Origin: Acidobacteriota bacterium
Lineage (GTDB): Bacteria; Acidobacteriota; Terriglobia; Terriglobales; Acidobacteriaceae
Direction of reading: 5' to 3'
Assembly: GCA_021800195.1 (NCBI GenBank)
Contig: JAJYZE010000002.1
Location: 1-33,661, forward strand
Length of the DNA: 33,661 bases
Shown here: positions 1-6,283 of the stretch, piece after piece
How the letters are laid out: each line of letters begins with the position of its first letter
Position numbering within the stretch: the first letter of the stretch is position 1
Position numbers and translations under genes: made by a program
The notes under the pieces: model-generated
What the model saw: only the letters and a program-made list of their open reading frames with translations
Database searches by the model: none
Told to the model about the DNA's origin: nothing

Positions 1-708
1 ACTTTCGACGGAATCGTGATTCCAAAAGGAGGTTCTCGCTAACAGGAGATCCCCGGAACTACAAGCAAGTCCATGCCGTGCGCTCTCGTGGATTTGTGAC
101 GGGCGTCGCATCTTAGGTTTTCAGCCTTGGTCTATGATCACAACAAGTGAGTGGGCGATGCCTGTCCCTGAGATCCAGATCTTGGCTGCACTCATTTCCA
201 CTCTACCCAAGCATCCCCTGCGGACGCCGAAGATTCCGGGTACGGGAGGAGCTGATCTTGCGGGTATCCTTGAGCGCCAAGTGCAAAATAAAATGTGGCT
301 CCGACAGGAGACGTCGAAAATTAACCGGCGGCTGTGGGTTGTACGAGTAAGAAACCTGGCAGTCCTGACCAGTGGAGAAGATTTACGGGAATGAATGCTG
401 CCATCCGCGCCGCAGTCTGGGCGAGTTTTTCCAGCGAGGTACAGGCCCGAGGAGGGTACCATGGGGACGAGGGTACCATGGGGACTCGGATCTGATCGAG
501 GGCAATCACAAACAACCTGGGCCGCGCACAGTGACGGCCTGATGCAACGTGGCGAATGCCGTCACAATCCCGCCGTTGGGATTCCCTGCGCCCTTCGCTG
601 CAACGTTCCGGCGCTCAATCAAGCTCCCGGGACAGTTCCTAAGCATCGTCGGCAGTATCTTCCGGCGTTGGCTTTCGTGAAGACTTTACTCGATTGGAGA
701 GGATGAAT
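1..708. other. Left-edge region without a convincing gene
   Basis: I see no recognisable gene here. A plus-strand open frame at 134-394 (86 codons) has no ribosome binding site and no similarity I recognise; another at 395-706 is broken into by a 17-base tandem duplication and ends in the leader of the next gene. The segment probably contains the promoter and leader of the Cyc2-like gene, but no clear -35/-10 pair stands out. Confidence 0.5.
452..485. repeat. 17-bp perfect tandem duplication
   Basis: The unit GAGGGTACCATGGGGAC occurs twice head to tail (452-468 and 469-485) with no mismatch. Each copy holds a purine-rich stretch and an ATG. The length is not a multiple of three, so it would shift any reading frame across it, which argues that this stretch is non-coding. 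It looks like a recent slippage product. Confidence 0.9.
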
Positions 709-2028
709 ATGCGGAAAGTTCTGAGTCTTTTTGCCATTGCGTGCTTCCTGTTTGGCATTCCCTATGCCCACGCAGTCCCGAGTTTCGCGCGGCAGACAGG
801 CCTTTCCTGCAATGTATGCCACACCCAACCACCGGAGCTGACGGCCTTTGGTCGGAACTTCAAGCTGAAAGGTTATGTGCTGACCGACATGACCGCGAAA
901 GACAAGGTCGGTAACTCTAAGGATTTACTGCTGTCGAGGTTTATTCCGCTTGCCGCGATGGTGATCCTATCTGATACAGCCGACCAGGTAGCGCAGCCGG
1001 GGACCCAGAACAATACTGTGGAGTTTCCTCAGCAGTTGAGTATCTTTCTTGCAGGAGCGTACGCTGCGAATTTTGGGTCACTGATCTCGGCCTCCTATTC
1101 ACATCAGAGTAACCATTTCAACTTGACCAATTCTGACTTACGCTACGCGAATCAAGGTAAGCTGGACGGTAAGGACTGGTGGTACGGGATCACCTTGAAC
1201 AATAGCCCGACCGTGGAAGATGTCTGGAATAGCACGCCTGTCTGGGGATATCCCTATATCAACAGCACCTCCGCACTCTCGCCGCTCGCAGCGCCGATAA
1301 TCAACGGCGCTCTGGCCCAGGATGTTGCGGGGCTTGGCGGTTACAGCATGTGGGACAACCACTTTTACACCGCAGTGACCCTTTATCGGTCAGAACATGC
1401 CGGCGGCCCCGTGCCGATCACTGGAAAGACATTCGCGAACAACATCAGCGGCGTGGCACCTTACTGGCGAGCTGCATGGCAGCAGACTTTTGGCGACACC
1501 TATCTGGAAGTTGGCACCTATGGAATCGTCGTGGATGCCTTTCCCAATGCGATCAGCGGACCGGAAAACCGGTACGTAGATCCTTCTATCGATTTCCAAT
1601 TAGAGCATCCATTTGGTGCGAATCTGCTGGATGCGCACGGAAGATATACGCACGAATCATCCAATCTCGCAGCGTCCTTTGCGACAGGCGCAGCAAGCCA
1701 GAAATCCAACTACTTGAACGCATGGGAACTGGACAGCACGTATCACTGGAGATATAAGTACACCGCTACCGGATCCATTTTCTCCACGACGGGAAATACG
1801 GACCCGCTGCTGTATGCTCCGGCACCGGTGACGGGAAGCAATAATGGAAACCCGGACACATATGGATATGTGGCCCAATTCGGCTACTGGCCAGTACAGA
1901 ATATTGAACTTACAGCAGAATATACGGGATATACAAAATTCAACGGCGCCAGTAGTAATTATGACGGCGCGAAGCGAAATGCCTCCGACAACAACAGTTT
2001 GTATCTGGGCATGTGGCTGAACTTCTAA
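709..2028 (+). CDS. Cyc2-like outer-membrane porin fused to a monoheme c-type cytochrome
   Basis: The protein (439 residues from ATG 709) has a signal peptide ending AHA at residue 22, then a short cytochrome segment, then a long region rich in aromatic and small polar residues that ends in Phe, as outer-membrane beta-barrels do. The segment after the signal reads AVPSFARQTG, then CNVCH (C34, C37, H38), then PELTAFGRNFKLKGY. This matches the FARQT...CxxCH...GRxFKxxGY pattern I recall for Cyc2, the outer-membrane Fe(II) oxidase in which one heme c plugs a porin. Length fits Cyc2 (roughly 400-550). ATG 709 is chosen because GGAGAGG at 696-702 lies 6 bases upstream; the TTG at 694 and ATG at 703 are too near or overlap it. 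A Rieske/cytochrome b pair follows on the same strand, consistent with a role in electron entry. The electron donor cannot be told from sequence; similar proteins also occur outside known iron oxidisers. Confidence 0.75.
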   Translation: MRKVLSLFAIACFLFGIPYAHAVPSFARQTGLSCNVCHTQPPELTAFGRNFKLKGYVLTDMTAKDKVGNSKDLLLSRFIPLAAMVILSDTADQVAQPGTQNNTVEFPQQLSIFLAGAYAANFGSLISASYSHQSNHFNLTNSDLRYANQGKLDGKDWWYGITLNNSPTVEDVWNSTPVWGYPYINSTSALSPLAAPIINGALAQDVAGLGGYSMWDNHFYTAVTLYRSEHAGGPVPITGKTFANNISGVAPYWRAAWQQTFGDTYLEVGTYGIVVDAFPNAISGPENRYVDPSIDFQLEHPFGANLLDAHGRYTHESSNLAASFATGAASQKSNYLNAWELDSTYHWRYKYTATGSIFSTTGNTDPLLYAPAPVTGSNNGNPDTYGYVAQFGYWPVQNIELTAEYTGYTKFNGASSNYDGAKRNASDNNSLYLGMWLNF

Positions 2029-3000: not shown

Positions 3001-5733
3001 GTGGACCATAGAGAGAAAGCAGAGACGGGTTCATCGGCGAGCGGGAGCCTTCCCCGGCGCATATTTCACTGGCTCGACCGGCGCGCGGGCGTAGACCAAC
3101 TGATGAAGGTTTCGCTCGACGAGCCGATTCCGGGCGGCGCAAGGTTTGCCTACGTCTTCGGCTCGGGGCTGCTGTTTATCTTTATTTCGCAGATCATTAC
3201 CGGCATCTGCCTGGCGCTTTACTATGTGCCTTCGGCGGAGACAGCCCATACCAGCGTCGCTTACATTACCAAGCAGGTTGCGGCGGGTTCTTTCTTGCGC
3301 AGCCTGCATTACTACGGCGCCAGCGCGATGATTATCGTCCTGGGGCTGCACTTTCTGCAAACATTCCTTTACGGATCATTCAAGGGCCGCCGCGAATTGC
3401 TCTGGATCTCCGGGGCGACGCTTTCTCTCTTAGTGCTGGGTATGGGCTTTACGGGTTATCTGCTTCCATGGGACCAGAGAGCCTATTTCGCCACCGCGGT
3501 GGGAACAAATATTGTTGGAGAGATTCCGTGGATCGGCGCATGGCTTACAAGGCTGATGCGGGGCGGCGATACCATCGGCACGCTTACCTTGTCGCGCTTT
3601 TATGTGGCGCATGTCTTTCTGATCCCGGCGACGATCTTTGCGTTCATCAGCATTCACATCTTTCTCTTCCGCAAGGCTGGCGCAGCCGGCCCCATCGAAC
3701 AGCAGCCCCTCGGACCCGAGTTGCCTCCCGAAAGCTTCTATCCACGCCAGGTCCTGATGGACATGGCTTTCGCCTTGCTGATCATGGTGGGCCTTGGATT
3801 TCTGGCTTATGGCCATCCGGTTCCTCTCGGCCCCATTGCGAATCCGGCCGACACCCATTTTCTGCCTCGGCCAGAGTGGTATTACCTTCCCATGTTCGAG
3901 TGGCTCAAGTTCTGGGAAGGTCCGAAGGTAGTATTTGCGGTGGTGATTACTCCGGCTGTGCTTGCGGCGTTGTTCTTCCTGTTGCCGTTTCTCGATCGCA
4001 GTCTGGAGCGGAGACCATGGCGCCGGCCCATTCCGGTGCTGGCCGTGGCCGTTGTCCTTCTGGGAACTGTCTTTTTGGGAGTAAAGAGCACCGTAGATGA
4101 CCGTAAAGATCCAACGGTCGCCACGCAACTGGCTTTGCAGGCGCAGGAGGAAAAAGAATACACAGCCGCGCCCTTCCGTCCGTACATCGAGTCGCCCGGG
4201 AGCACCGGTCCGCTTGCCCTTCCGATTGGCCCGGTGAATCCGCTGGTGTCGCAAGGCAAAGGTGTCTTTCAGGCGCAAGGATGCTCGGGTTGCCACGGCG
4301 ATGTTGGCCTGGGCACCACTGTTGCGCCAAGCCTGAAGGGGATTACGACCAAGTTCACTCCGGAGCAGTTAACTGATCTGGTGCACAACCCGAATGCCGC
4401 GATGCGGGCCGGCCACATGCCTGCTTTTGATCTCTCCTCAACCGACATGACAGCTCTGCTGGCGTACCTGGGAGTGATTGGGACCAGTGAGGCGAATGTG
4501 CAGGCCTCTTCCGGCGCCTCGCTGCAGCCGACCGTCGCAAGCGTGAGTACGGCAAGCGCGCCGGCTGCTGTAGCAGGCGCTCCGTCCGAAGCTGCGCCGG
4601 GGCCGGCCCCGGCGCCGTCCCAGCGAACCGCCGCCGCGATTGCGGGCCAACAACTGTTCCAGCAGCACGCCTGTTTTGCCTGTCACGGACCCGCCGGACA
4701 AGGCGGACGAGCGCCCGCGCTGGCTCCTCTGATTGCGCATCTTTCCGATGCGCAACTGGCGCAACTGCTGCAAAACCCGAATAGCACCATGAGAGCGGGA
4801 GGGATGCCCCCGTTTACTGGCACAGCGCAGCAGCTCAGCATGCTGCTGGCTTATTTGCGCACGCTGCATTCGCCGGCACCAGCGCAGCCGCCCAGCGTTG
4901 CCCAGCCGTCCAGCGTTGCCCAAACCGCAGCCCAGGGGGGCGGAATTCCGTATCCGGAGATGGGTCCCCCGGAGGTGACGGCGGCGAAAGCAGCGCCGGC
5001 TACCGCCCAAGCGTCTGCCTCGGTCGCGGCCCCGGCAGCGGCCAGTTCGCCGGTCGCTACAGTTTCAGCCCCGGCAGCGCTGCCAAGTCCTGGGCGCTCT
5101 CTGTTTCTGTCTGAGGGATGCTCGGCGTGCCATGGACCTCTGGCGCAAGGAACTGCGTTTGCTCCATCGCTGGTGGGAATTACGAAAAAGATTCCGCGGA
5201 CCCAGATACCTGCACTCCTGCGCCACCCGAATGCACAGATGCGCGCCGGGGGTATGCCGACGTTCGACCTGACAGACACACAGATGCAACAGCTTGTGAG
5301 CTATCTGTCCAGCCTGAAGCCGGCGGCAGCTACGGCTCCTTCGGCAGCTACGGCGCCGCGCACGGCGGCGGGCGTGCCTCCTGTCTCCCAACAAGCAACG
5401 GCTTCGGGAGCCGCTGGCGCTGCGCGGGCAGAAGCCGCTTCTGCTCCCCCGCCCCCACCGCTGAGCCCGTTAGCAAAACAGGGAGAAAAGATATTCCAGC
5501 GTCTCAACTGCGAAACTTGCCACGGGGTTGGCGGATTGACTGGAACCGTCGCTGCTCCACCTTTGGCGGGAACCGCCTCGCTTCTACCCGCCAGCGTGCT
5601 GGAGAATCTGTTGCGGCACCACTCGACGCGGATGCAACAAGGCGGTATGCCGCTCACCAATCTGAACCCGCCAGACATGAAGGCTCTGGTGGCCTATATC
5701 CGATCCATGCCTTCGACGCCGGAGACACGATGA
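3001..5733 (+). CDS. Cytochrome b fused to four c-type cytochrome domains
   Basis: Residues 1 to about 365 are a full-length cytochrome b with both quinone-site halves: paired heme-ligand histidines in the helix around SLHYYGAS...GLHFL and in RFYVAHVFL...SIHIF, and the PEWY quinol-site motif in RPEWYYLPM. After a last helix near 340-365 the protein becomes periplasmic and carries four heme c domains: CSGCH (428-432), CFACH (558-562), CSACH (707-711) and CETCH (837-841). Each is followed about 40 residues later by a Met ligand in MRAGxMP or MQQGGMP. Linkers of 60-90 residues are almost pure Ala/Pro/Ser/Thr/Val. The domains resemble one another, so they arose by internal duplication. Start GTG 3001 has GAGGG 7 bases upstream. 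With the Rieske gene this makes a bc complex in which the fused tetraheme tail replaces a separate cytochrome c1. Typical cytochrome b is near 400 residues; this is 910. Confidence 0.93.
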   Translation: MDHREKAETGSSASGSLPRRIFHWLDRRAGVDQLMKVSLDEPIPGGARFAYVFGSGLLFIFISQIITGICLALYYVPSAETAHTSVAYITKQVAAGSFLRSLHYYGASAMIIVLGLHFLQTFLYGSFKGRRELLWISGATLSLLVLGMGFTGYLLPWDQRAYFATAVGTNIVGEIPWIGAWLTRLMRGGDTIGTLTLSRFYVAHVFLIPATIFAFISIHIFLFRKAGAAGPIEQQPLGPELPPESFYPRQVLMDMAFALLIMVGLGFLAYGHPVPLGPIANPADTHFLPRPEWYYLPMFEWLKFWEGPKVVFAVVITPAVLAALFFLLPFLDRSLERRPWRRPIPVLAVAVVLLGTVFLGVKSTVDDRKDPTVATQLALQAQEEKEYTAAPFRPYIESPGSTGPLALPIGPVNPLVSQGKGVFQAQGCSGCHGDVGLGTTVAPSLKGITTKFTPEQLTDLVHNPNAAMRAGHMPAFDLSSTDMTALLAYLGVIGTSEANVQASSGASLQPTVASVSTASAPAAVAGAPSEAAPGPAPAPSQRTAAAIAGQQLFQQHACFACHGPAGQGGRAPALAPLIAHLSDAQLAQLLQNPNSTMRAGGMPPFTGTAQQLSMLLAYLRTLHSPAPAQPPSVAQPSSVAQTAAQGGGIPYPEMGPPEVTAAKAAPATAQASASVAAPAAASSPVATVSAPAALPSPGRSLFLSEGCSACHGPLAQGTAFAPSLVGITKKIPRTQIPALLRHPNAQMRAGGMPTFDLTDTQMQQLVSYLSSLKPAAATAPSAATAPRTAAGVPPVSQQATASGAAGAARAEAASAPPPPPLSPLAKQGEKIFQRLNCETCHGVGGLTGTVAAPPLAGTASLLPASVLENLLRHHSTRMQQGGMPLTNLNPPDMKALVAYIRSMPSTPETR

Positions 5734-6283
5734 CCGGAGGATTGGAAGCCAAGTACGACAGCGACCTTCAGCCGGTCTGAGACTGGCTTCATCCATCATG
5801 GTTGCCCGGATGCCTTGATGCCACATGGACCGCCCGTTGCAACCATTTTGCAGAACCCCTGCTTTGACCATGATCGACTTACGCGCCCGCAGCCAGCGGG
5901 CGCTTTTTCTTTCTAACGATGCGGGAAGGCCGAATCGAAGCCGCATGGCGGCGGATGAACCGAAGAATTTCGGTTGAAGTTTCGATGCCGGCGATTGCCA
6001 GGTCTTTGAAGATGTTGGAGAGCAATGGGTTGAGGACGGGACAACCGTGGGAAGTGTTTTGACTGTTTGGACGCTTCTCTGGCGGGGATCGATGCAGCGG
6101 AGAGGTCTGGCAAGAGACGGAAGAAGGAGGGACCGGAGGCAGCCTTGAAGCTTCGCGCAGCGGATGGATGGAGAGAGAGGGGATAATATAGCAACATTCG
6201 GAGCTACCTCCAGGCAGGCCAGGAATTCCTGTTAACGGGCAAATCCGGAGATATCGAGATTTTGTTGGAGGAAGAAGACCAGG
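5734..6283. other. Intergenic region after the cytochrome operon
   Basis: It holds one strong intrinsic terminator (listed separately). A 47-codon plus-strand frame begins with ATG 5919 but has no ribosome binding site and no recognisable product. The minus-strand frame 5913-6197 is also unsupported. Nothing else identifiable is seen before the AhpD-like gene. Confidence 0.5.
5883..5914 (+). terminator. Rho-independent terminator of the Rieske/cytochrome b operon
   Basis: A perfect 8-bp GC-rich stem, GCGCCCGC (5883-5890) with GCGGGCGC (5896-5903), closes a 5-base AGCCA loop and is followed at once by TTTTTCTTTCT. This is a textbook intrinsic terminator on the plus strand, 150 bases after the cytochrome b stop codon. 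Confidence 0.9.

Follow-up and report, generated by a model that had tools for sequence, protein, structure and literature searches.

The window, by which we mean the whole stretch of 33,661 nucleotides that was analyzed, derives from a 3.0-Mb MAG that is 88.8% complete. The original prediction proposed that one of its reading frames encodes a Cyc2-like porin-cytochrome in a probable acidobacterium. The host assignment is borne out by its relatives, which include Acidipila rosea (G847/G061) in the same family and a MAG named 'Granulicella sp.' in the same genus. The reading frame, at positions 709-2028 of the forward strand, is real and specifies 439 amino acids when counted from ATG 709, with the stop codon at 2026-2028. 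In-frame starts are available at TTG 694, ATG 703, and ATG 709, and GGAGAGG lies 5' of the ATG; we annotate a gene for a predicted outer-membrane porin-cytochrome of the Cyc2 family at 703-2028 (+), starting from ATG 703 or 709. A signal peptide, MRKVLSLFAIACFLFGIPYAHA, was predicted by eye at 709-774 (+; AHA/VP), and the structural model described below places an N-terminal helix at residues 2-15. The signal peptide is followed by AVPSFARQTGLSCNVCHTQPPELTAFGRNFKLKGY and then by a barrel ending in LNF. The N-terminal heme segment, VPSFARQTGLSCNVCHTQPPELTAFGRNFKLKGYVLTD, defined as in PMC8406198, spans 775-888 (+) and contains CNVCH (808-822), which is the heme motif. The N-terminal sequence of the mature protein is AVPSFARQTG-LS-CNVCH-TQP-PEL-TAFGRNFKLKGY.

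Keffer et al. (PMC8406198) define Cyc2 by the motif AxPxFAR[QK][TY] directly 5' of a CxxCH that binds the only heme, by PxL four residues past the CxxCH, and by a length of at least 365 amino acids. The window protein carries AVPSFARQT-GLS-CNVCH, which fits the motif; its 439 residues contain one CxxCH, and PxL is present in CNVCH-TQP-PEL. An alignment of 54 homologs from at least eight phyla has 38 invariant columns, including P24, R28, Q29, T30, C34, C37, H38, P42, L44, G48, R49, F51, and K52. Because these columns are invariant over such a range of organisms, the heme motif is not a chance occurrence. Homologs were found in Pseudomonadota, Bacteroidota, Chlorobiota, Gemmatimonadota, Ignavibacteriota, Myxococcota, Thermodesulfobacteriota, and Rokubacteria. 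Sequence searches of Pfam, NCBIfam, and PDB with the protein returned zero matches.

An AlphaFold2 model (ma4f389d117ff; mean pLDDT 86.7, pTM 0.84) was computed from an alignment of the window protein and 53 homologs. The model predicts a short helical N-terminal segment and then 16 long transmembrane strands, which form a barrel from residue 81 to residue 438 (949-2022, +). Foldseek returned 16-strand porins, and VIA-align gave Z scores of ~22 against OmpC/OmpF and against OprP/OprO, the latter pair having been named as Cyc2 structural homologs by Keffer et al. (PMC8406198). A structure lacking a 16-stranded barrel had been listed as grounds for abandoning the Cyc2 assignment, and the predicted fold has the 16 strands. 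The expectation that the remainder of the protein is barrel-like and ends in Phe also agrees with the model and with the C-terminus, ...LGMWLNF. According to the model and the alignment, a long loop connects strands 5 and 6 (1201-1323, +) at the position of the porin constriction loop. This loop holds 6 of the 38 invariant residues (N165, P167, D171, W173, N174, and P182), and it may act as a constriction that lies on the path of iron.

As the original prediction stated, Rieske and cytochrome b genes follow directly. The Rieske [2Fe-2S] protein gene (2400-2981, +) matches Pfam PF00355 with an E-value of 2e-12 and has the ligand motifs CPHLGC and CPCHGS. The adjoining gene (3001-5733, +) encodes a 910-residue fusion of cytochrome b and four monoheme class-I cytochrome c domains, with matches to PF00033, PF13631, PF00032, and four copies of PF00034 (Pfam E-value 6e-48); the original prediction made no mention of this fusion. 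Its four heme-b histidines (103, 117, 204, and 219, with spacings of 14 and 15) and its Qo motif, PEWY at 291, are intact. Thus, the pair has the Rieske ligands, heme-b histidines, and PEWY by which complexes of the bc1/b6f type are recognized. The c-domain tail (4243-5715, +) has CxxCH motifs at 4282-4296, 4672-4686, 5119-5133, and 5509-5523; after each comes a Met of the GMP type, and the linkers are rich in Ala and Pro. Two features set this complex apart from those of the bc1 and b6f types: its cytochrome b shares a single chain with four monoheme c domains, and its genes are linked to that of a predicted outer-membrane porin-cytochrome.

A hairpin resembling an intrinsic terminator lies after the unit (5883-5903, +; eight G-C pairs, a loop of 5, and a T tract) and is a consensus match only. 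A promoter scan gave no more matches than expected by chance. Between the Cyc2 and Rieske genes lie 371 bp (2029-2399), an insert that is common only to the closest relative (G004, 97%); in many relatives of the same group (group A), the Rieske gene overlaps or almost touches the Cyc2 stop codon. This gap between the two genes weakens the case for their co-transcription in the window. Beyond the Rieske and cytochrome b-c4 genes are CMD and ABC genes. The stretch from 7981 to 33661 is ordinary and contains genes for a ClpB/ClpA-like ATPase, trigger factor, clpP, clpX, lon, an aminotransferase, an RNase II-like protein, an M29 peptidase, DapB, aspartate kinase, and semialdehyde dehydrogenase.

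We assessed the linkage of Cyc2 to the cytochrome b gene in 300 genomes of the host family. The 42 close Cyc2 homologs (at least 54% identity) are all accompanied, at a distance of 0.6-1.9 kb, by the fused cytochrome b gene; in 41 cases Cyc2 lies upstream of it on the same strand. Conversely, 42 of 44 such cytochrome b genes in the same genomes (at least 72% identity) adjoin Cyc2. The cytochrome b frame has the 865-1018 codons of the fused form in 36 of the 42 loci and is shorter in six, at least some of which are cut by contig ends. For a genome of ~4 Mb with a few cytochrome b genes, we roughly estimate the chance of such a neighbor at ~1/100; therefore, chance is excluded as the cause of the linkage. 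Common descent of the block explains part of the count, although the block is still kept across many genera. The link to Rieske and cytochrome b genes, which had been proposed from one neighborhood, is thus far more strongly founded. About one in seven of the sampled genomes carries the unit. In a cultured type strain, A. rosea DSM 103428, the three-gene unit is intact; its Cyc2 is 69% identical to that of the window, and its cytochrome b, which has four CxxCH motifs, is 81% identical.

A literature search, with most subscription journals out of reach, returned no description of a fixed Cyc2-Rieske-cytochrome b unit. Cyc2 homologs themselves are known from Acidobacteriota (PMC9671151, PMC8446621, and PMC10654088), and two were described as cluster 3. 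Cyc2 as such is thus not new to the phylum. The proteins in these reports share family and phylum with the window Cyc2; in the available portions of the three sources, linkage to Rieske and cytochrome b genes was not found.

Rusticyanin was also searched for in 369 genomes that belong to the same class as a gammaproteobacterial locus, and this yielded a rus-operon Cyc2 in genome G329. There, a gene with the Cyc2 motif is accompanied by coxA (cytochrome oxidase subunit I) and by genes resembling those for heme A synthase and rusticyanin; the rusticyanin-like gene scores 137 bits, which is below the cut-off of 146.7. The rus-operon protein aligns with the window Cyc2 from end to end at 34% identity (E-value 5e-87), and the two share 35 of the 38 family-invariant residues, against an overall identity of 36%. 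This end-to-end alignment ruled out another candidate explanation, that the N-terminal motif had been placed on an unrelated porin. Together with motif, length, single heme, and predicted 16-strand barrel, it upholds the identification as a member of the Cyc2 family.

In a tree of 120 proteins, the window Cyc2 falls in a 17-member acidobacterial group (SH-aLRT 100), which nests inside an acidobacterial clade of 52 (SH-aLRT 99). The rus-operon Cyc2 belongs to the same tree set as this clade. A position outside Cyc2, the other listed ground for abandoning the assignment, was not observed with this set. The deep order of the tree is untrustworthy, because the search was quick and several branches are long. 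From its homology to the rus-operon protein, the reference used in this comparison, the window Cyc2 would belong to published cluster 2.

Other acidobacterial groups, C and D (IPAFARKY...), match the window protein in the N-terminal part only and are a case apart. Two acidobacterial families have the N-terminal heme part alone in common with it, one beginning IPAFARKYxTSCxTCH... (480-540 amino acids) and the other IPAFARKYGLPCSACHEAWPKLN... (loci L064, L067, and L072-L074, and loci L036, L063, L065, L066, L069, and L071, respectively). Genes for GltD-like, Rieske, and cytochrome b proteins lie ~5 kb away from the IPAFARKYxTSCxTCH family.

The window Cyc2 resembles At. ferrooxidans Cyc2, Mariprofundus Cyc2-PV1, and Leptospirillum Cyt572 in its N-terminal motif, single c heme, PxL, and length, and it shares with the Cyc2 family at large a predicted 16-strand barrel related to OprP/OprO, as well as full-length homology to the rus-operon protein. 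However, the partners differ. Known Cyc2 proteins are associated with cyc1, rusticyanin, and oxidase, whereas the window Cyc2 is associated with a Rieske protein and a cytochrome b-tetraheme c protein. The first gene of the rus operon (cyc2-cyc1-cup-coxBACD-rus) has a homolog in the window unit, from which cyc1 and the genes for a copper protein, an oxidase, and rusticyanin are absent.

Partner genes differ in other lineages as well. Other acidobacterial Cyc2 subfamilies also adjoin Rieske and cytochrome b genes, and at two Bacteroidota loci such genes lie 1.5-3 kb upstream of Cyc2. The conserved operons of group B, a second acidobacterial Cyc2 group (L048, L051, and L053), encode, besides Cyc2, a Rieske protein, an ExtP-like cytochrome b, an ExtQ-like protein, octaheme and monoheme cytochromes, a cupredoxin-like protein, and a GltD-like NAD(P)/4Fe-4S flavoprotein. 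A Syntrophobacteraceae MAG (L164) has a gene set that resembles that of group B, Rieske and cytochrome b included. The gene after Cyc2 encodes a diheme c cytochrome in many Pseudomonadota and a monoheme c cytochrome in several Bacteroidota. Thus, the partner of Cyc2 varies by lineage; where it could be recognized, it proved to be either a c-type cytochrome or a complex linked to quinone. The group B operons and the L164 set are partly related to the Geobacter ext cluster.

The host MAG has other Rieske/cytochrome b sets, one beside an oxidase (contig C92) and one resembling that of group B (contig C151), and it encodes two oxidases. Because a second set stands beside an oxidase and two oxidases are available, the complex of the unit is an extra one. 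The C151 operon (L183, 1-5614) has cupredoxin-like, GltD-like, Rieske, cytochrome b6, and ExtQ-like genes and stops at the contig end, before the expected octaheme, monoheme, and Cyc2 genes. Judging from this gene order, the host probably has two Cyc2 proteins.

We consider it probable that the three-gene unit functions as a transenvelope conduit between dissolved extracellular iron and the quinone pool. Iron would meet the lone c heme, positioned at the opening of the 16-strand outer-membrane barrel; the periplasm would be spanned by the c domains, four in all, on their flexible linkers; and the Rieske center and cytochrome b would exchange electrons with quinone in the inner membrane. The sequences themselves show the protein family, the predicted fold, the Rieske and cytochrome b ligand sets, the fusion, and the fixed gene unit, whereas physical contact between the parts, iron as the partner, and the direction of electron flow are inferred. 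If the unit is an iron conduit, about half of our confidence goes to quinol-driven Fe(III) reduction at low oxygen, a sizeable but smaller share to a flow from Fe(II) into the cell, and a small remainder to both.

The slight lean to Fe(III) reduction arises because the complex is of the quinol type, the unit includes no oxidase, and RuBisCO was not found. Within the unit, there is also no gene for a copper protein or for CO2 fixation. RuBisCO was looked for in the 88.8% complete host MAG and not found, which is weak evidence because roughly a tenth of the genome is missing. Micro-aerobic Fe(III) reduction is documented in acidophilic Acidobacteria, namely Acidobacterium capsulatum and Acidicapsa (PMC8790237). 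A route from quinone through bc1 and rusticyanin to Cyc2 has been proposed for Fe(III) reduction in At. ferrooxidans, and Cyc2B has also been assigned to Fe(III) reduction (PMC10715153). The original prediction of an electron-uptake route stands in its tie to the Rieske and cytochrome b genes, and its inward direction is one of two candidates; sequence fixes no direction, and outward flow fits at least as well.

More specifically, we tentatively propose that the unit of Acidobacteriaceae is a compact and self-contained iron:quinone oxidoreductase across both membranes, in which Cyc2 would run reductively and serve a dedicated bc-type complex as its terminal Fe(III) reductase. The tethered four-heme wire would then belong to the bc-type complex. 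For Fe(III) reduction by acidophilic Acidobacteria, the literature covered here offers no mechanism; if the proposal is true, the unit is a genetic basis for this activity, and Cyc2 is an unsafe marker of iron oxidation. Cyc2 serves as a marker gene of iron oxidation in metagenomes, and the unit puts that reading to the test: here a Cyc2 is locked genetically to a complex linked to quinone, and the group that carries it is mostly organotrophic and includes documented Fe(III) reducers. Because the unit is present in cultured A. rosea DSM 103428, its function can be tested in both directions.

The alternative that survives best, which we regard as possible but doubtful, is Fe(II) oxidation. Electrons would pass from Cyc2 through soluble c cytochromes to an aa3-type oxidase and partly uphill, via the dedicated bc-type complex, to quinone. 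The three experimentally tested Cyc2 proteins are all called Fe(II) oxidases (PMC8406198), and this record favors inward flow. Keffer et al. caution in the same report that function is uncertain in distant Cyc2 branches. Such a path is also consistent with the invariant residues held in common with the rus-operon Cyc2 (35 of 38), with the two oxidases of the host genome, and with the uphill bc1 branch described in At. ferrooxidans. In many proteobacterial relatives, moreover, the diheme c gene directly 3' of Cyc2 reproduces the order cyc2-cyc1. Against these points, the unit itself contains neither an oxidase nor a soluble c cytochrome, and an organotroph in which RuBisCO was not found needs few uphill electrons. 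Menaquinone is usual in the host's family; were it the quinone here, electrons would face a strongly uphill path.

By analogy with Ext-type operons, the unit might instead serve a partner other than iron, such as manganese, humics, an electrode, or an oxyanion, which we think unlikely. The Geobacter ext cluster (extHIJKLMNOPQS) resembles the window unit, as do the group B operons, in bringing together genes for a porin, a Rieske protein, cytochrome b, and multiheme c cytochromes, and the ext operon is tied to selenite and tellurite reduction (PMC5877670). Group B operons also join Cyc2-like porins to ExtP/ExtQ-like genes and an octaheme cytochrome, and one relative (L123) is from a Melioribacter MAG whose culture is labeled Mn. 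Yet ExtI lacks a heme motif and does not belong to the Cyc2 family, and genes of the ExtQ, ExtM, and ExtN types are absent from the window unit. With 193 bits, the window cytochrome b falls short of the cut-off for ExtP, which is 290, and octaheme-type genes are likewise missing, so an Ext-type operon was rejected for this unit; the idea is retained for the group B loci. Finally, it is very improbable that the protein is an ordinary porin whose heme is vestigial or structural and whose place beside the Rieske and cytochrome b genes is due to chance; general porins are its nearest solved folds, but the heme motif and its flanking residues are invariant across phyla, the linkage is reciprocal (42/42 and 42/44), and c-type cytochrome genes adjoin Cyc2 in other phyla also.

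Several additional Cyc2 loci were observed in the course of the analysis. A Cyc2 homolog from an acidobacterial MAG (L060, G048:C240), which acted as the central query in a genome contig scan, falls in a gammaproteobacterial clade and is 90% identical to L086. This placement suggests that L060 is probably binning contamination of the MAG, and it is unsuitable as an example of an acidobacterial Cyc2. One Cyc2-homolog region, identical in gene order, is shared by Acidiphilium cryptum plasmid pACRY03 (L082, NC_009469.1) and a plasmid deposited as that of Acidithiobacillus ferrooxidans YQ-N3 (L085, CP084173.1); either a common plasmid or a mixed culture could account for the likeness. In another acidobacterial Cyc2 group (L139 and L146), a gene for a small pentaheme cytochrome of 178-184 amino acids, with five CxxCH motifs, lies directly 3' of Cyc2.
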